24,879 nucleotides of DNA, from the IMG/VR virus record IMGVR_UViG_3300023179_000489, positions 1 through 24,879 of that record; one strand, 5' to 3'. Below the pieces are notes generated by a model. That model saw only the letters and a list, made by a program, of their open reading frames with translations. It had not been told where the DNA came from and did not search any database. This document shows positions 2,952 to 24,879 of the stretch, piece after piece. The translations under genes were made by a program, and so were the position numbers. Numbering within the stretch: position 1 is the first letter of the stretch; each line of letters begins with the position of its first letter. The DNA comes from a virus.

Positions 2952-5900
2952 TTAAACGTGATAGTATCTCCAAGTCTTCAAATTCCATCCCCAATACCAA
3001 CCGAAATAATATGGTGAGTAAGCGGTATAATCAACTAGCATGGTCCAGTTAACAAAGGAAATTTCATCAAAACTCTTTATCTCAACTACTTTCTTAACGT
3101 CCTTATATTGACCGAGTCTTTGTTTTTCAACTAGAGCACTTCTTCCGACAGTATCTGGCAAGCCGTCACTATAATACCATCTAAATTTTATAATACCATA
3201 ATCGTCTGAAAGTAATTTACCGCCCTGTACGGTGTTTGTACCGTATACGCCCTTGTTAGGTCCTTCGATATTAGTTACCTGACTATTTAGTATGTCGTTA
3301 CCGAAGTAAAAGTCATGAAGTGTATTTGGCTTAAGACCACGAATCTCCCCAGCAACTACTGTATCAATAGCTGCTTTTGCCGCGGGCGAAAGGTTGCCAG
3401 TGAGAGTTGCGTTACCCCTCGAATTAGCAATATTAAGCCCTCTGTTGGTATTTCCGACATAATTAGAATTACCGTAGTATCCATAATTATAGTTGCTATA
3501 GTACCACGGGCTCCAGTATACATATGGATACCAAAGATTATCAGTTCTTACATAACAGTTAAGCTTACCCGGGTTTAGAGATTTAACCTTACCATTGTAT
3601 GCTGCCTTTATTCCTGTACCCGTCTGATTAGTTAGATTTACCGTAGCATCAACGGGATACTCTAGCCTATATTCATGAAATGGTGTGCCTCTTCTTACTC
3701 TTATTAAATAATACTTACCGTATGTTGGATCATGTGTCCAAGTTATCTGACCAGTATTAATCATCCAGAACTTAGAATTCCCACCTCTTGATCTCCAAGC
3801 AGGGTTTTTTCTAGTACCGTCAAGCCATTTTCCTCTTACACTTGCAATAGTATTTTGAAGTGCGTTAATTGAAGCATATCTATTTCTTTCAGATTGAGTA
3901 AGAGCTTGAGCATTTTCAGAAGTAGTTACCAGTCTTGCACCAGATGGAATCGCAGTGGAAGACCCTGAGTTATTATTGTTAGGTATTGTAAAGAATTGTG
4001 TAGTTGATTGATAGATTTCCATTCTATCTTCACCATATGCACCAAAATACATTACAGCCGGGCCAGCTGTACTACTAAAAGTAACATACTGATCATATAT
4101 TGTAGGTCCGTTATTTCTTACCTCTTCAATATATACTATTTGCTGTGTGACAGTAGTAGTAGTAGTAGTGGCGGTAGTAGTTGCGGTAACCGGGGCTGGA
4201 GGAGTAGTAGCTGAAGACTGCCTAACAACTGCATACTCCTCATATGGTAGGGTAGCGTACTTACCATATACTAACGACTTTGTAGTTGCATCATTAGTAT
4301 AGTATTTGTGCTTGATATTTCTTTGTTTTCTAGATACAGTAACTCTACCATTAAAATTAAGTGCTGAATATTCTGGATCAGATAGATCACTATAATCGGT
4401 AGACGTAAAGTTATCAACAAAAAAACCAAACTTAAATCTGCTTAAAGAGGTATTGGCCGAGCTCTTTATTGCTTTGTCTTTTACATTATCTTCTAATTCT
4501 TTAAGGTCAACTCGATATTCAATATTCTTTAGTCTTCTATCGATAGATCCAATATCAGTCATGGTATAAACAGTAGGCTGTGAATACTGAATATTTTCGT
4601 TAGTAATAGCAGCTTTAATCTTATACTTTTCTTGTCTAACGTTTAGAAGCTTCACGTTAGAAATCTTCTTATCAATAATTTCTAGAGTGTTTGCAGTTAA
4701 TACGCTAGGAATAGAAGGATAAGGAGGAATTGATATAGTGTTTATTAAGATAGAATCAGACGGAGGTGTAAATCTATTATTAAGTGCTTCAGGAGTACCT
4801 GCATTAATTACAAAATTACCGTTTGAATTTAAAACTATATTATCAGTTCTACCTGTATATCTTGTTGTATTAAATGCTAGATCGCTAACAGGGAGTGGGA
4901 AATATTTTTCAGTTGTAGTATTTAGTAATCCAGTACCAGATGGTTGCGTAGGGTTTGTAGTAATGTTAGCATCATTGTAGGTATAAACAAGATTAGCTGT
5001 ATTATTAGCATTAAGTCTAAAGTCAATGGTTTCAATAAGGTCAAAATAATTACCTTTCGAATCATACATCTCAGGTATTTCTAATGTATGAACGTTTGAA
5101 GCCGATGTCGTAAGCGCTGCTAGGGTTGTTGTAGAGCCCGAACCAGCTGTGTCTTGACGGGTATAACTATCAACAGAATATATTCCATCCCCTGACTTCA
5201 CAAAGCAGTCAAACTGTACTAAGAGATAATCTGATGTGGTTAATGTTAAAGTAGAAGAAGCTTTTTTATACAAATAACCTACATCATAGAAGTTTTCATT
5301 TTGATTATGATCAATGAAAAATTCATTGGTAACATTAGTAGAGTTTGTATTAACTGAAGATGAGGATGCTTTGTAGACATTTCTTAGTCTGAAAATATCA
5401 TTTACGCCGAGAGGCCAGGGTCCGCTTATTCCACTTGCATGTGTAGAAAGATTTAGCTTAACAAGTGTATTTCTGCTTGTTGTTTTGGCGGTAGGAGTAA
5501 GACCTGTTCGCTTTGCGTTGTATGTAACAGAAACGTTTGTTGCAGACGTAAAGTTTGCAGGTGGGTTAAGATAAACTCTAATTATCGAGCCGGAGATGTT
5601 AGCTGATCTGTTTGTTCTTGTGCTCAGCTGCACAGGCACATAACGCGGGCAAATAAATGCGATATTAGCACCCGTATTAGACGATGATAGATTTACTACC
5701 TTGTCAAGTGAAACCGAGGTTGTATTTGCGGTGCCGTTAGCTGCAACAGAGCTGTAATCAACTATACGTCTTATTTTGCTACCCGATGTATCAAAAATTC
5801 TTAAGTAGTCGCCGGGCTTGAGAGCAGCAAAGAAAACTGCGTTTGATAATGAAATTATATTATTTGTGTTAATAACATTAGCAGTAGAAACGTTAGCAGT

Positions 5901-8108
5901 CTCAGCATTCGCTAGCGGTATTACTACTAAATCTTGCATTTCTGATGCGCTTAGTTCACCTGAGTAGATTTGTGAGCCGGTTGCAATAGTAATTGAAACG
6001 TTACCATTAGTAGCAATTGTTGAAGACGTATTGGACGATCTATAACGATAAGAAATGCTATTCAGGTTAGAAAGTGCCTGAAACCCGGAATTAAAAATAC
6101 TAGTATCAAGATCCGGTCTATTAAGGTTAGTAATATAACTACCAGAGGCAGGATCATAATCTTGTAGAATGTCGCCGTAGCCTTTATAGGTTGCACCGTT
6201 ATAGTAGACAGATTTTATGTCACGAATATTTTTATTCGCGTTCATAACTACGTTGAACACATAAAGTCGGTATACGGCCGAATCAGTACCAGGTGCACCC
6301 CTATCAAATACTAAGGACTTCATTCTAGCAGTGCCAATCTTTGTACCGGTAGGTGAAAGAGTAGTACCAGTTACTTCTGTATTGCTGAGATAGGTCTGCG
6401 CAGTATCGTAGAGGTCTACAACGTCCCCGGTATTAAACTGGAAGTACCCGCCGGTTTCTTTTATTAAGAAATAATTTCCGTAATTAACATCTACGGTTAC
6501 ATTTGAATAAGCAACATTTGTAGTACCTTTATTAACAGTAGCAATAAAGGATGTTTGTGTGTCAACTCTTGCACCTTTAATATAGGCGGTACCAGTGTCA
6601 ATTACTACATTAAAGGTATTTGATTCACTGGTTGTAGTTGGGGAAGTCGTTACAGATTGAAACGCATCAGTTACGAAATTACCTGACTGCTCAAATGTTC
6701 TTGTATTGATTTGATCTTGTATTTTATTATACTGTGTCTGTCTTTGCTGACGGAAAGGCTGACCATTATTAAATTCAATAAGAGGTAGAAAATCCGTATT
6801 ACTTGCAGCAACTTCTGTAGTTAGCACTGTTAATGCTGGGGTTAATTGTAATCTATCTGCACCCGGTGCTGTATAATTTAATGAGCCTGATGCATTGTCT
6901 AATAGAGATGTATCTTCATTGTAGTCGATAAATGATTCAACTGTATCAAAACCTACAACCTTATCATCAGGTGTACCAGTAGTAGCATATTTTTCAACAA
7001 TTGTAAGCTGCTCTGACACTCTGATAAAGTGTCCTTTTTGATAGATTACACCGTTACTAACCGCAACCCCATAAGAATTACCTGTTGCAGTATCATCGTT
7101 CTGAACTGTAACTTGAGATAGAATTGTATTTGAAATTAGGTTTAAAGAACCTACCGAACCGGTATTTGAGAATACACTCACGTACGGTGGAACATAATAT
7201 CCTCTGCCACCGTTAGTAGCAGTGATTGTTATGATTTTACCTGATGCGTCTGTGATAAGACCAGCGGTAGCACCAGTTCCAATAATTTCTGTTACTACGG
7301 CCGTAGCTGAGGAGTTAGCTGTAGTCGCACCGTAGTTATTAGGAGAAATATAATCTCCAATAGAAAACTTCCATTGCGCTGAGTTTGATTGTGCGTTAGT
7401 AAGTATTGACTCGAGCGGTCTTACTTTAAGTATTGTAGCAATACTATTAGCTGTTGTATTTACTTCCAAAACTTCGGCGCGTGCATCACCCTGCTTAATA
7501 GCGGAGTTAATTACCCATGTATTCGAATTAAAATCCTTACCACCAGTAGAATTTACTACCGCTATAGCACTCAAAATAACTACCGGATCATCATTACTAA
7601 ATGAGCTTCCGCCTTCATTTACAGCTATTTTCTCTACTACGTTATTAGCATTGTATATGTTAAGTATGGTATTTTTAGAAAATTTAGTAAGATTAAAACT
7701 AGTACCGCTATTAATAAATCTTACAAAAATAGTGTTTAAGTCAGGTGCGGTTGATTCATAACCGTTTGCTGTAGCAACAATTACACCTGTGAGATTACTG
7801 GATGGGTCTTTAGCGTAATAATTTTTAAAGGTGCTGACACTAATAGGGGCACCCTTTGTGTCGTTATCTTTTAGTTTTGCGTATGTTAGCTTATTGAGAA
7901 ATGTAAAATTACATCCGTCAATAATAGTACCTCTCTTGAAGATATTATCCCCAAATCTCTCGACCTGTGTCTGTAGAATTCTTTGTAGCTGATTAAGCTC
8001 TCTAACCTGTACAGCAACACCCGGCTTGAAAAGAATTCTATGAAAATTCTTATCGTCGCTATAATCATCAAAATACGGTGAAGGTGAAAGATTTGTTTGA
8101 ATTGGCAT
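2952..8108 (-). CDS. Giant baseplate/fibre-network structural protein with DUF4815-like N-terminus
   Basis: This 1718-residue protein is the largest in the window. The N-terminus (about residues 10-60, including FHRILFKPGVAVQVRELNQL and RFGDNIFKRG) matches my memory of DUF4815 proteins of T4-like marine phages, which sit in the place of the gp9/gp10 region after gp8. GGRGY-type turns occur near residue 300, and beta modules with PGDYLRIFD occur near residue 760. A Thr/Pro linker near residues 1300-1320 is encoded by a trinucleotide repeat. Near residues 1525-1545 is a very Tyr/Trp-rich stretch (NLWYPYVYWSPWYYSNYNYG), and the C-terminus is also aromatic (FGWYWGWNLKTWRYYHV). The start ATG at 8108 has AAGG just upstream, and the gp8-like stop is 4 bases away. 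The function is probably a peripheral wedge or fibre attachment platform, inferred from gene order. Confidence 0.8.
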   Translation of the reverse strand: MPIQTNLSPSPYFDDYSDDKNFHRILFKPGVAVQVRELNQLQRILQTQVERFGDNIFKRGTIIDGCNFTFLNKLTYAKLKDNDTKGAPISVSTFKNYYAKDPSSNLTGVIVATANGYESTAPDLNTIFVRFINSGTSFNLTKFSKNTILNIYNANNVVEKIAVNEGGSSFSNDDPVVILSAIAVVNSTGGKDFNSNTWVINSAIKQGDARAEVLEVNTTANSIATILKVRPLESILTNAQSNSAQWKFSIGDYISPNNYGATTANSSATAVVTEIIGTGATAGLITDASGKIITITATNGGRGYYVPPYVSVFSNTGSVGSLNLISNTILSQVTVQNDDTATGNSYGVAVSNGVIYQKGHFIRVSEQLTIVEKYATTGTPDDKVVGFDTVESFIDYNEDTSLLDNASGSLNYTAPGADRLQLTPALTVLTTEVAASNTDFLPLIEFNNGQPFRQQRQTQYNKIQDQINTRTFEQSGNFVTDAFQSVTTSPTTTSESNTFNVVIDTGTAYIKGARVDTQTSFIATVNKGTTNVAYSNVTVDVNYGNYFLIKETGGYFQFNTGDVVDLYDTAQTYLSNTEVTGTTLSPTGTKIGTARMKSLVFDRGAPGTDSAVYRLYVFNVVMNANKNIRDIKSVYYNGATYKGYGDILQDYDPASGSYITNLNRPDLDTSIFNSGFQALSNLNSISYRYRSSNTSSTIATNGNVSITIATGSQIYSGELSASEMQDLVVIPLANAETANVSTANVINTNNIISLSNAVFFAALKPGDYLRIFDTSGSKIRRIVDYSSVAANGTANTTSVSLDKVVNLSSSNTGANIAFICPRYVPVQLSTRTNRSANISGSIIRVYLNPPANFTSATNVSVTYNAKRTGLTPTAKTTSRNTLVKLNLSTHASGISGPWPLGVNDIFRLRNVYKASSSSVNTNSTNVTNEFFIDHNQNENFYDVGYLYKKASSTLTLTTSDYLLVQFDCFVKSGDGIYSVDSYTRQDTAGSGSTTTLAALTTSASNVHTLEIPEMYDSKGNYFDLIETIDFRLNANNTANLVYTYNDANITTNPTQPSGTGLLNTTTEKYFPLPVSDLAFNTTRYTGRTDNIVLNSNGNFVINAGTPEALNNRFTPPSDSILINTISIPPYPSIPSVLTANTLEIIDKKISNVKLLNVRQEKYKIKAAITNENIQYSQPTVYTMTDIGSIDRRLKNIEYRVDLKELEDNVKDKAIKSSANTSLSRFKFGFFVDNFTSTDYSDLSDPEYSALNFNGRVTVSRKQRNIKHKYYTNDATTKSLVYGKYATLPYEEYAVVRQSSATTPPAPVTATTTATTTTTTVTQQIVYIEEVRNNGPTIYDQYVTFSSTAGPAVMYFGAYGEDRMEIYQSTTQFFTIPNNNNSGSSTAIPSGARLVTTSENAQALTQSERNRYASINALQNTIASVRGKWLDGTRKNPAWRSRGGNSKFWMINTGQITWTHDPTYGKYYLIRVRRGTPFHEYRLEYPVDATVNLTNQTGTGIKAAYNGKVKSLNPGKLNCYVRTDNLWYPYVYWSPWYYSNYNYGYYGNSNYVGNTNRGLNIANSRGNATLTGNLSPAAKAAIDTVVAGEIRGLKPNTLHDFYFGNDILNSQVTNIEGPNKGVYGTNTVQGGKLLSDDYGIIKFRWYYSDGLPDTVGRSALVEKQRLGQYKDVKKVVEIKSFDEISFVNWTMLVDYTAYSPYYFGWYWGWNLKTWRYYHV
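4152..4169. repeat. (AGT)6 trinucleotide microsatellite
   Basis: Six perfect AGT units on the plus strand read as six ACT (Thr) codons on the coding minus strand, inside the Pro/Thr linker of the 1718-residue protein. Further ACT and ACC codons flank it, giving a longer imperfect Thr tract. Slippage here would change linker length in whole codons without breaking the frame. Confidence 0.85.
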
Positions 8109-16759: not shown

Positions 16760-17047
16760 TTATCCAGCAAAGACGTTACCTGACCCAGATGCAACTGCGG
16801 AGCCGCAAGCAACGCTATCTCCAACTCTACCTAGTGCAACACCATTAACAAAAACCGAGCCGCTACCGGCTGCTAAAGTAGAGCTATGACATCCATTATC
16901 AGGGCAGCAGTGCGAGCTCCAACCGTCGCCAACCCTATGAGCTGGCTTACCATTAACAAAAACATCTGAACTTCCAGCACTAGAAGCTCTTGGAGGCCAG
17001 CAGCCGTGACCTGTACAAGTATCACCTAATCTAGCTACTGCTGGCAT
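16760..17047 (-). CDS. PAAR-repeat spike tip protein
   Basis: The 95-residue protein shows the PAAR pattern: ARLGDTCTGHG at residues 5-15, VFVNGKPAHRVGD at 29-41 and VFVNGVALGRVGD at 65-77. Candidate metal ligands are Cys11, His14, Cys16, His37, His46, Cys47, Cys48, Cys53, His54 and Cys81. The number of Cys residues is high for such a short protein. PAAR proteins form the sharp metal-stabilised cone on the tip of the gp5/VgrG spike (gp5.4 in T4) and pierce the outer membrane. The gene begins on the last base of the 159-residue gene stop (TAATG) and precedes gp25. The whole chain is a single PAAR domain with no toxin or enzyme extension. Confidence 0.93.
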   Translation of the reverse strand: MPAVARLGDTCTGHGCWPPRASSAGSSDVFVNGKPAHRVGDGWSSHCCPDNGCHSSTLAAGSGSVFVNGVALGRVGDSVACGSAVASGSGNVFAG

Positions 17048-17526
17048 TATACCTTTCCTTGTTCTTTAAGATACATCAGCTGATTCTTACCATTATCCCA
17101 CGTATTGTATACAGTGCGAGTATATGTTTTTGTTAGTTTATTATTTAGGGAGGTTGTAGCCGTGATTGTATAATTTACTATTTTTGAAAGGGCAGGGCTA
17201 TGATACTCAAACACTTGCTTACCATCAGGTATTTTATCGATATTGCTAACTGATACTGGATCTTCTAGCAAATTACTTTTTTCTTTAGTAATATACACAA
17301 ACTCTAAATCTTTAATTAAGTTAGTATACTTACCGCTTATACTACAAGAATTAGTACCATCTGCAATAACTATGCTTTCATCATAAGCATCTGCAGTAAT
17401 CACCATACTAATAACAGTTTCAGGTAGTGCTGGGTTGTAAGGAGTAATAGTACCTGTAAACACATCGTTTATCTGTGTATTAAGTAGAAAAGCATTTGAA
17501 ATAGTAGCAGGTGTAATAACTATCAT
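17047..17526 (-). CDS. Unknown protein between spike and PAAR tip genes
   Basis: I do not recognise this 159-residue protein. It is acidic to neutral, has no signal peptide or membrane helix, and is predicted by eye to be beta-rich with alternating hydrophobic strands (TISMVITADAYDESIVIADG-like region near residues 38-60, and NYTITATTSLNNKLTKTY near 116-135). This could be an immunoglobulin-like or spike-associated beta domain. Its ends overlap the gp5 stop and the PAAR start by one base each, so it is tightly embedded between the two spike components. A spike-decorating protein, adaptor or chaperone for spike/PAAR assembly is an inference from position alone. Confidence 0.75.
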   Translation of the reverse strand: MIVITPATISNAFLLNTQINDVFTGTITPYNPALPETVISMVITADAYDESIVIADGTNSCSISGKYTNLIKDLEFVYITKEKSNLLEDPVSVSNIDKIPDGKQVFEYHSPALSKIVNYTITATTSLNNKLTKTYTRTVYNTWDNGKNQLMYLKEQGKV

Positions 17527-22664: not shown

Positions 22665-23516
22665 ATGTCACTATTAGATACATTCACAACTTCTTTAGCA
22701 AACAAGATAGGTCTAAACACCAATAGACTACCTAATGCAAGTGAAGGCTTTAATGTAAGTAAATTTAGATCTCAGGTTCTAGGTAATGCTGGTTTCCTAA
22801 GAAAGAACCTATTCTTAGTGCGTATATATTTTCCTGATGCATTTTCAACTCGTATTGAAAGATCTTTTGGTATACGAACAAGAGAGTTAATGATGTATAC
22901 GGAGAATTTTACGGCACCGGGTATCGCTTTAGCTACTTCTGACGATATTCATAGATATGGTACTGGTCCAACAGCCAAGTATGCTTATGGAGCTGTATTT
23001 ACTGATATTTCTGCTAGTTTCTTAGCAGACGGTCGCGGTGAAATTCTCAAACTATTTCAAACTTGGATGAAGTATATCGTTAACTACGATTCATCTAAAA
23101 ATTCACCTAATGGCTTGAACGGCGCAGAGCCCTACGAAGTTGGTTACAAAGATGATTATGCATGCCGTATTGAAGTAATAGTTTATAATGAAGCAGCAGA
23201 AAAAATTATTACATATACTATAAACGAAGCTTTCCCTGTCTTCCTAGGTGATATTTCTCTATCATGGGCAGATAATGATAGTATTATGAGAATACCAGTT
23301 TCATTCTCTTATAGAGATTGGCAGACAGATACAATGAGTGCTGCTTCTATAACTGGTAGTGCTTCTCAAAACTTAACACTACTACAGAAAATTATCAAGG
23401 TTGGTACAATAGCACAAACAATAGGCACCCTTAAGAAGCCTCAAAATATTGGAGATGCTATTAATTTAGTGAACAATGCAAATATTATTTCAGGTGGATT
23501 GTCCGGTATTATTTAA
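22665..23516 (+). CDS. gp54: Baseplate tail tube initiator gp54
   Basis: The 283-residue product compares with T4 gp54 (320 residues). It has the tail-tube fold pattern: NLFLVRIYFPDAF near residue 49, PGIALATSDDIHRYGTGPTA near 86 and FTDISASFLADGRGEILKLF near 110, followed by WMKYIVNYD. The segment ITYTINEAFPVFLGDISLSW (about 182-200) and the strand RIPVSFSYRDWQTD (about 209-222) parallel the T4 gp54 region with ISVSAPELSYD and FDVTFAYRVMQ. The C-terminal 50 residues are a helical, Gly/Asn/Ile-rich tail as in gp54. gp54 with gp48 caps the hub and templates polymerisation of the gp19 tube. A gp19 tube protein is the main alternative, but T4 gp19 is much shorter (163 residues). The next gene follows after 12 bases. 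Confidence 0.78.
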   Translation: MSLLDTFTTSLANKIGLNTNRLPNASEGFNVSKFRSQVLGNAGFLRKNLFLVRIYFPDAFSTRIERSFGIRTRELMMYTENFTAPGIALATSDDIHRYGTGPTAKYAYGAVFTDISASFLADGRGEILKLFQTWMKYIVNYDSSKNSPNGLNGAEPYEVGYKDDYACRIEVIVYNEAAEKIITYTINEAFPVFLGDISLSWADNDSIMRIPVSFSYRDWQTDTMSAASITGSASQNLTLLQKIIKVGTIAQTIGTLKKPQNIGDAINLVNNANIISGGLSGII

Positions 23517-23528
23517 TTAGGAGATATC

Positions 23529-24233
23529 ATGGCTTTACCAAAGATTCAGTCGCCAGTTTTTAATTTAACTATTCCTTCGACTGGTGAAAACAAGAAGTTT
23601 AGACCCTTTCTCGTTAAAGAAGAAAAGATACTTCTTCTTGCACAGCAAGGTAGTGAATTAGATCAGATCACCGGTCTTAAACAAATTATCAATAATTGCT
23701 GTATTGAAGGTATTGATGTTGACACACTAACTACTTTTGATCTTGAATATATTTTCTTAAAGTTAAGATCTAAGTCGGTTAACAATATGGTTAAACTTAA
23801 ATTTAGAGACTATGAAGATGAAGAGGTTTATGAGTTTGAAGTTAACTTAGATGAGGTTGAAGTTAAGTTTGACCCAGAGCACGAACAAACTATAAGAGTT
23901 ACAGATGACGTTGGCATTAAGATGAAGTATCCAGATGTGCGTATTACATCGCAGCTTACAGATACAGAGAATGTAGAAGATATGTTCGATGCAATTGTAG
24001 TTAACTGTATTGATAGTATCTTCGATGCAGAGAAAGTATATCCGGCAGTAGAGACTGAACCCGGTGAGTTAGAAGAGTTTATTAATAATCTGGATCATAA
24101 GACGTTTGAAAAGATTCAGAAGTTTTTTGAAACTATGCCAAAGCTTTATCATGAGTTAAACTATGTTAATAAGCTTGGCAATGATAGAAAGATTAAGCTT
24201 GAATCGGTGAAGGATTTTTTTACGTTGGGCTGA
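23529..24233 (+). CDS. gp26: Baseplate hub assembly protein gp26 (T4 base plate protein family)
   Basis: The 234-residue protein resembles T4 gp26 (208 residues). It begins MALPKIQSPVFNLTIPSTGE followed by FRPFLVKEEKILLLAQQ, the signature of the T4 baseplate family (Pfam PF12322 as I recall it). Further family segments are IINNCCIEGIDVDTLTTFDL (about 49-68) and YIFLKLRSKSVNN. The C-terminal half is acidic, and LDHKTFEKIQKFFETMPKLY (about 188-207) is the conserved helix. gp26 is needed for hub assembly and is probably a chaperone, because it is missing from finished T4 baseplates. It has the best ribosome-binding site in the block (AGGAG, 8 bases before ATG). Its last codons lie on the slippery sequence TTTTTTT, so a share of ribosomes probably makes a longer gp26-gp51 fusion. 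Confidence 0.9.
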   Translation: MALPKIQSPVFNLTIPSTGENKKFRPFLVKEEKILLLAQQGSELDQITGLKQIINNCCIEGIDVDTLTTFDLEYIFLKLRSKSVNNMVKLKFRDYEDEEVYEFEVNLDEVEVKFDPEHEQTIRVTDDVGIKMKYPDVRITSQLTDTENVEDMFDAIVVNCIDSIFDAEKVYPAVETEPGELEEFINNLDHKTFEKIQKFFETMPKLYHELNYVNKLGNDRKIKLESVKDFFTLG

Positions 24234-24284
24234 GTCATACAAGCTTAGGCAACTACTTTACTTTAGTATTTGCGATGGCTCAGC
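24215..24284 (+). promoter_or_regulatory. Candidate -1 programmed ribosomal frameshift signal
   Basis: The heptamer T_TTT_TTT (24215-24221) is in the exact phase needed for tandem -1 slippage at codons 230-231 of gp26. Seven bases later GCTGAGTC (24229-24236) can pair with GGCTCAGC (24277-24284), including one G-T wobble. Inside that 40-base loop ATACAAG can pair in part with CTT..GTAT (24261-24269). The zero frame stops at 24231-24233. The -1 frame continues to 24409 and has a stop only at 24200-24202, with no ATG, GTG or TTG before the ATG at 24275. The slippery site is clear. The structure is my inference by eye. Confidence 0.7.
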
Positions 24285-24409
24285 ACCACAAATATTCGAT
24301 AACAGAGATAGAAAATTTAATACCGTTTGAGAGAGATATTTACGTTGAGATGCTTTTAGATTATTTAAAACAAGAAGAAGAACGTCGTAAGAAAGCATAC
24401 GGGGAATAA
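24221..24409 (+). CDS. gp51: gp51-like segment, probably made as a -1 frameshift fusion with gp26
   Basis: The -1 frame after the slippery site encodes 62 codons: an 18-residue lead (YVGLSHTSLGNYFTLVFA), then MAQHHKYSITEIENLIPFER and DIYVEMLLDYLKQEEERRKK, ending AYGE. This fits the short gp51 hub-assembly proteins next to gp26 in marine T4-like phages. It also fits the T part of tape-measure chaperones, which typically read ..QHH.YS..EIE..IPFERD.Y. Fusion with gp26 residues 1-231 gives about 293 residues. The only internal start is the ATG at 24275, which would give a 44-residue free protein, but it has no ribosome-binding site and would lose the GNYFTLVFA part that reads as real coding sequence. 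T4 gp51 is 249 residues, so the match to T4 is by position and role. It probably acts with gp26 on the tape-measure protein and hub. Confidence 0.75.
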   Translation, partial: YVGLSHTSLGNYFTLVFAMAQHHKYSITEIENLIPFERDIYVEMLLDYLKQEEERRKKAYGE

Positions 24410-24424
24410 TGAAGGATAAGGGTA

Positions 24425-24879
24425 ATGGCTAACGGCGGTAAAGAAGATAATGTAGTTTTAACTATAGGAACATATCTTGCGCAGCGTATGCTCGAGAAAG
24501 CTTCCGAGGCTGCTGCTTCAGACCCCCCCGGGCACTCGGGCGTCGCCGCTGTTAATCTTTTAAGAACAGATAGCTCCTTAAGAGATAAACTTAAGTTTAT
24601 TGAGGATGACGATCTTCCCACGGTTGTAATTTTAGAGCATACTAATAAAGTAGTTAAGGTTTTAGTATCTAAAACCGATGTAAAAGTAGAAAGAGTAATT
24701 AGTAAAACAAAGAGTACTGCTTCTGGCGGCTTACCAGAAGTGGCTGCTAAAGCAGTATCTGGTAAGAAAAAAACAGAATCAAAGCCTTCTAAAAATACAA
24801 ATACAAAAGTATCTGAAGCTAAAAAAGCTGTAATTGATTTAAGCAAAGATACTAATCAAGCTACAAGCCAGGTAGAAGC
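24425..24879 (+). CDS. Start of a Lys/Ala-rich tail protein, possibly the tape measure (cut by window edge)
   Basis: The frame opens at the ATG at 24425 after AAGGATAAGGG, a good ribosome-binding context, and stays open for 151 codons to the edge. Residues 1-30 (MANGGKEDNVVLTIGTYLAQ) are followed by a helix and then a GC-rich codon patch encoding SDPPGHSGVA (residues 32-41). Next is a compact segment with LKFIEDDDLPTVVILEHTNK, and from about residue 95 a low-complexity Lys/Ser/Ala/Thr-rich region. In T4 the tape-measure gene 29 lies in this neighbourhood, after 26, 51, 27 and 28. Tape-measure chaperones usually lie just before the tape-measure gene, so the full-length protein may be gp29-like. 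The visible part carries no motif that proves it. Confidence 0.6.
   Translation, partial: MANGGKEDNVVLTIGTYLAQRMLEKASEAAASDPPGHSGVAAVNLLRTDSSLRDKLKFIEDDDLPTVVILEHTNKVVKVLVSKTDVKVERVISKTKSTASGGLPEVAAKAVSGKKKTESKPSKNTNTKVSEAKKAVIDLSKDTNQATSQVE

Follow-up and report, generated by a model that had tools for sequence, protein, structure and literature searches.

Organization of the gp26 locus

We analysed a stretch of viral DNA of 24,879 nucleotides (IMG/VR record IMGVR_UViG_3300023179_000489, positions 1 to 24,879), which is referred to here as the window. On its plus strand, a gene for a tail-tube-like protein in the position of gp54 (22665–23516; phrog_45 tail tube, E=3.9e-35) lies upstream of a gp26 homologue (23529–24233), which encodes 234 amino acids (aa) and represents the putative short form of a tail assembly chaperone (TAC-N). 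The gp26 homologue matched PF12322 T4_baseplate (E=4.7e-55) as well as the baseplate hub family phrog_150 (E=1.4e-61), and was about 40% identical to its nearest isolates. An open reading frame (ORF) in the −1 frame of the same strand (24215–24409) matched phrog_634, the baseplate hub assembly catalyst or gp51 family (E=1.8e-23), making up the candidate C-terminal domain (gp51-like, TAC-C) that would be added after a frameshift. The −1 frame was matched by 563 phage records and, among the matches listed, most begin at its first residue. The phage records that were inspected list gp26 either alone or together with a gp51 that starts at a separate downstream ATG; none joins the two frames, and the annotation of gp26 and gp51 in such records could be improved.

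The next ORF on the plus strand, in the tape-measure position, begins at 24425 and runs off the window (24425–24879). No significant family match to this ORF was found in PHROG or Pfam. In relatives, the same position is occupied by widely varying ORFs of 450–630 aa, and some of the large ones have domains resembling lysozyme or endopeptidase, or match tape measures weakly. The usual order in relatives was head completion, end protector, tail-tube-like gene, gp26, gp51 and the large ORF, the last of which is a likely candidate for the tape measure; gp26 and gp51 thus sit where G and GT do in lambda. Two further features of the window were recorded. A short C/G-rich patch (cccccccgggcactcggg, 24520–24545) lies in AT-rich surroundings where the ORF following gp51 begins. 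A 159-aa ORF on the minus strand (17047–17526), located between a PAAR-like gene (16760–17047) and a tail lysozyme gene, had a weak match to a PHROG annotated 'toxin' (E=3.4e-07).

A slippery heptamer near the end of gp26

Direct reading showed that the 0-frame tail of gp26 is ...GTG AAG GAT TTT TTT ACG TTG GGC TGA, giving the C-terminus ...VKDFFTLG-stop. The two TTT codons occupy 24216–24218 and 24219–24221, which places a slippery heptamer, T_TTT_TTT, at 24215–24221 on the plus strand in X_XXY_YYZ phase. A sequence-only reading of this DNA had claimed that gp26 ends on such a heptamer in perfect phase. The phase was borne out and the site does lie near the end of the gene, but three more sense codons (ACG TTG GGC) precede the TGA stop (24231–24233), which begins nine bases 3′ of the heptamer. 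The reading had also described the −1 frame as open from just upstream of the site to 24409, with no start codon before 24275, and this proved accurate: the last upstream stop is TGA 24200–24202, the frame is open from 24203 to TAA 24407–24409, and the first ATG, GTG or TTG past the heptamer is ATG 24275. With 24221–24223 as the first shifted codon, the predicted fusion reads KDFF|YVGLSHTSLGNYF... and would have 231 + 62 = 293 aa.

When the larger ORFs of the window were surveyed, in-phase T_TTT_TTN occurred three times in 7,837 codon pairs, and only the gp26 heptamer was near an ORF end (18 nt away). The chance of such a heptamer for the gp26 ORF alone, taken as a simple proportion, was about 0.002. 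The two other in-phase T_TTT_TTT sequences lie inside minus-strand ORFs (520–2907 and 2952–8108), far from stops, and are probably due to chance.

Conservation of the heptamer in relatives

The −1 frame of the window and those of three relatives served as queries against IMG/VR, some contigs being fetched more than once. All 312 group members, the window included, had the heptamer in phase (310 T_TTT_TTT and 2 T_TTT_TTC). Extra queries from a cyanophage, Vibrio phage nt-1 and Sinorhizobium phage phiM9 yielded 85 further contigs, all in phase (82 T_TTT_TTC and 3 T_TTT_TTG), and in-phase T_TTT_TTC/G/T was also found in named phages of the Kyanoviridae, Pootjesviridae and Straboviridae (nt-1, VH7D, PX29, P19 and Ci1). 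Within the close lineage, T_TTT_TTT was present in 39/39 nonredundant members, for which the chance was about 0.43 per lineage given the Phe/Asp codon usage of the family. Comparison of the junction, from which the sequence-only reading had expected slippery heptamers in the same phase, revealed them in more than 300 relatives; an X_XXY_YYZ heptamer in the 0-frame phase is conserved. The divergent Vibrio phage K452 (about 3709–3720) has G_CTT_TTT at the junction, and its open −1 frame is still gp51-like.

These comparisons bear on two other explanations of the locus. One frameshift joining two halves of a single family can resemble an indel error, as would be expected of a split gene, a pseudogene or a faulty assembly. 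However, the phase and the site recur in hundreds of independent contigs and finished genomes, and this reading is refuted by the comparative data, leaving it a negligible probability. Runs of seven or eight T's can also provoke polymerase slippage, and the −1 product might then arise from mRNAs with an extra U. We consider such transcriptional slippage very unlikely, since many relatives have only six T's (T_TTT_TTC or T_TTT_TTG), invariably in the register that slippage of two tRNAs in tandem requires, and one has G_CTT_TTT; moreover, a conserved stem at a 7-nt spacer, described below, fits a ribosomal stimulator.

Coding selection in the −1 frame

Many database records, for example those of Syn33 and S-RIM2, start gp51 at the downstream ATG that corresponds to ATG 24275 of the window, and gp51 could accordingly be an independent gene, translated from this ATG by reinitiation or coupling after the gp26 stop, with an incidental heptamer. 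We found, however, that purifying selection acts on the −1 frame already 5′ of this codon. Between the 0-frame stop and +60, pN/pS was 0.136 in the −1 frame (bootstrap 0.108–0.169; 79 disjoint pairs) compared to 1.85 and 1.36 in the other two frames, in agreement with the coding conservation that had been expected between the heptamer and 24275. There was no −1-frame ATG, GTG or TTG before +60 in 56 of the 113 nonredundant members, or before +84 in 18 of the 113. Furthermore, the codon at +60, which is ATG 24275 in the window, was a Leu codon and non-canonical start (CTG, TTA, CTA, CTC or CTT) in 35/113 nonredundant relatives. Because the −1 frame evolves as coding sequence before the first possible start, an independent gp51 start cannot explain the conserved sequence, and it gives no reason for the invariant heptamer. 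Coding selection upstream of every canonical start thus rules it out in practice, and we regard it as scarcely credible.

In 55/113 nonredundant members a −1-frame stop abuts the heptamer, and in these the 0-frame stop is at +7 to +16, so that a shift would be confined to the interval between the two stops.

A conserved RNA stem downstream of the heptamer

The sequence-only reading had also noted a possible stem starting 7 bases downstream of the heptamer. We found that a 7-nt spacer (24222–24228) is followed on the plus strand by a 5′ arm (GCTGAGTCAT, 24229–24238), whose first base is the first one paired and which contains the gp26 TGA stop. This arm pairs with a 3′ arm (ATGGCTCAGC, 24275–24284) across a 36-nt loop (24239–24274) to form a 10-bp helix with a few more flanking pairs. 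Structures 5–9 nt past the heptamer are common, not obligatory, for −1 frameshifts, and in the window's group the distance is 7 nt.

The stem was examined in an alignment of 113 nonredundant sequences without gaps. Standard pairs made up 93% of the cells of a nine-pair helix, compared to 18–37% when the helix was slid by one to three columns, and cells changed on both sides numbered 28 versus 8.6 in shuffles. The pair at columns 20/65 was G-C in 73, A-U in 18 and G-U in 17 of the 113 sequences; in the protein, Ser and Ala are thereby exchanged for Asn and either Ile or Val. Both arms encode protein (GLSH and M/L-A-Q-H), and the stem was therefore tested against synonymous recoding. The mean fold energy was −18.3 kcal/mol versus −6.9 kcal/mol for the recoded sequences (z about −40 to −43), with z between −7 and +3 in control windows within gp26 and further downstream. 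In addition, the 5′ arm uses CTG, the rarest Leu codon of the family, in 93/113 sequences. No consensus structure emerged from RNAalifold when it was run on the full alignment, probably owing to about 20 sequences that break the stem (20/113 of the window's group do not fold into it), and the count on the named helix and the synonymous-codon null were used in its place. An Rfam search at the site returned no family. A pseudoknot partner for the loop was also sought, and no conserved second helix was found.

The excess in stem energy varied by lineage: there was none in the sampled cyanophages (z 0.2) or rhizobial phages (z 0.4), and in five Straboviridae it was weaker (z −5). Such a stem is not generally required for the T4-like frameshift. 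In the cyanophages P-SSM2 and S-PRM1 another complementary pair, AGTATGGCTCA / TGAGTCATACT, was observed 5–6 nt past the slippery site; in P-SSM2 it forms a strong hairpin locally, and it is possibly another lineage-specific stimulator.

Taken together, it seems likely that a dedicated RNA stem of 9–10 bp, with a 7-nt spacer and a loop of about 36 nt, sets the chaperone frameshift in a large uncultivated T4-like lineage. Its 5′ arm would hold the gp26 stop while both arms code for protein, and the Leu/Gln and Ser-Asn/Ala-Ile codons would co-vary so as to keep the pairing; other T4-like lineages would lack this stem or form another hairpin, and T4 would rely on a second gene.

Predicted structures of the putative short form and of the extension

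AlphaFold2 predicted the short form with a mean pLDDT of 85.8, and the 64-aa extension was predicted to be all helical (pLDDT 74). A fold search with the extension gave no significant match. The short form likewise had no significant match in a fold search against the PDB, HK97 2ob9 appearing at E=2.6 only; in a viral library its named matches were mostly other baseplate hub proteins. A sequence search against solved structures found no match, and the Pfam families Phage_TAC_3 and Phage_TAC_12 were weakly matched (E=0.014) by one member of 78 each.

Discussion

We conclude with high confidence that gp26 and the adjacent −1 ORF are one T4-like tail assembly chaperone gene, which would be expressed as two forms by a −1 slip on T_TTT_TTT with the putative aid of a stem. 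The in-phase conservation of the heptamer, the purifying selection on the −1 frame and the conserved stem all lend strong backing to the frameshift between gp26 and gp51 that had been put forward from the sequence alone. Judged from these sequence features, the phage very probably makes two chaperone versions from one gene by a slip at seven T's. Most ribosomes would stop at the gp26 TGA and release the 234-aa short form. A minority would slip one base back on the heptamer, the stem stalling the ribosome at the usual 7-nt distance and so aiding the slip, and would go on to make the long form (TAC-NC, 293 aa), which ends in a helical domain of the gp51 type. If lambda G and GT are a guide, both forms would hold the tape measure protein ready for assembly of the tail tube and would be absent from the finished virion. 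The stem is a concrete feature open to experimental test, and it may govern how much of each form is made; if the interpretation above is true, the long/short ratio would be tuned differently from lineage to lineage.

In lambda, Xu, Hendrix and Duda reportedly described in 2004 how G and GT, a short and a long chaperone, arise when the ribosome slips by −1 close to where the first ORF ends. The two are said to be located between the tail tube and tape measure genes, with a heptamer that differs from that of the window. The gene studied here resembles this system in its two predicted chaperone forms and in lying 3′ of a tail-tube-like gene; it differs in having no detectable sequence homology and in the strong downstream stem. 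The equation of gp26 with G and of gp26–gp51 with GT, proposed in the sequence-only reading, is backed by the architecture, by the gene order of relatives and by the domains of T4 gp26 and gp51. Its placement of these proteins in the general tape-measure chaperone class agrees with the architecture and the literature; the searches by sequence and by fold showed no significant resemblance to any tail assembly chaperone of solved structure.

The window's phage and T4 have these protein families in common. T4 encodes 26 and 51 separately, on opposite strands; gene 26 has no slippery site at its end, where the window has T_TTT_TTT, and gp51 is one continuous 249-aa ORF with both domains. PMC3004832 counts both proteins among the hub assembly chaperones of T4 and describes gp51 as required yet absent from the particle. 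The two proteins are 20% identical (E=2e-6); both match PF12322 and only gp51 also matches phrog_634, suggesting that the short and long forms are divided between two genes in T4 and come from a single gene in the window's phage. The forms predicted here (234 and 293 aa) likewise share their N-terminal domain, parallel to T4 gp26/gp51. Our data give independent sequence support to the view that a single chaperone underlies the hub-assembly proteins 26 and 51 of T4-like phages, 26 being its short form and 51 its long form, and they support widespread frameshifting outside T4's own group.

The abstract of the 2022 paper by Vladimirov and colleagues is said to name T4 genes 26 and 51, to describe them as separate within T4's group and to report frameshifting in several other T4-like groups. 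From its title and the papers citing it, tail assembly chaperone genes of T4-like phages had already been identified (Vladimirov et al. 2022), and PMC12846349 cites that work when it refers to the poly-T slippery sites that such phages have in their TAC-N genes. The hypothesis that had been presented as new was therefore right but not new. Within the literature searched, in which Vladimirov et al. 2022 was represented by its title and citing papers, no description of the stem was found; the stem is apparently undescribed and lineage-specific. Pakpunavirus Adele and the Vandenendeviridae (PMC12846349) resemble the present case in a conserved poly-T −1 site at the TAC-N end and an open −1 frame across divergent genomes, and differ in the GTTTTT motif and in belonging to another phage family. 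As far as its title and citing papers indicate, the set of Vladimirov et al. 2022 concerns the same gene class in T4-like phages, whereas the window represents an uncultivated lineage with a conserved stem and a 36-nt loop past the site. Thus the frameshift device is already described for T4-like phages, and what is added here is a conserved hairpin, positioned such that it may promote the slip.
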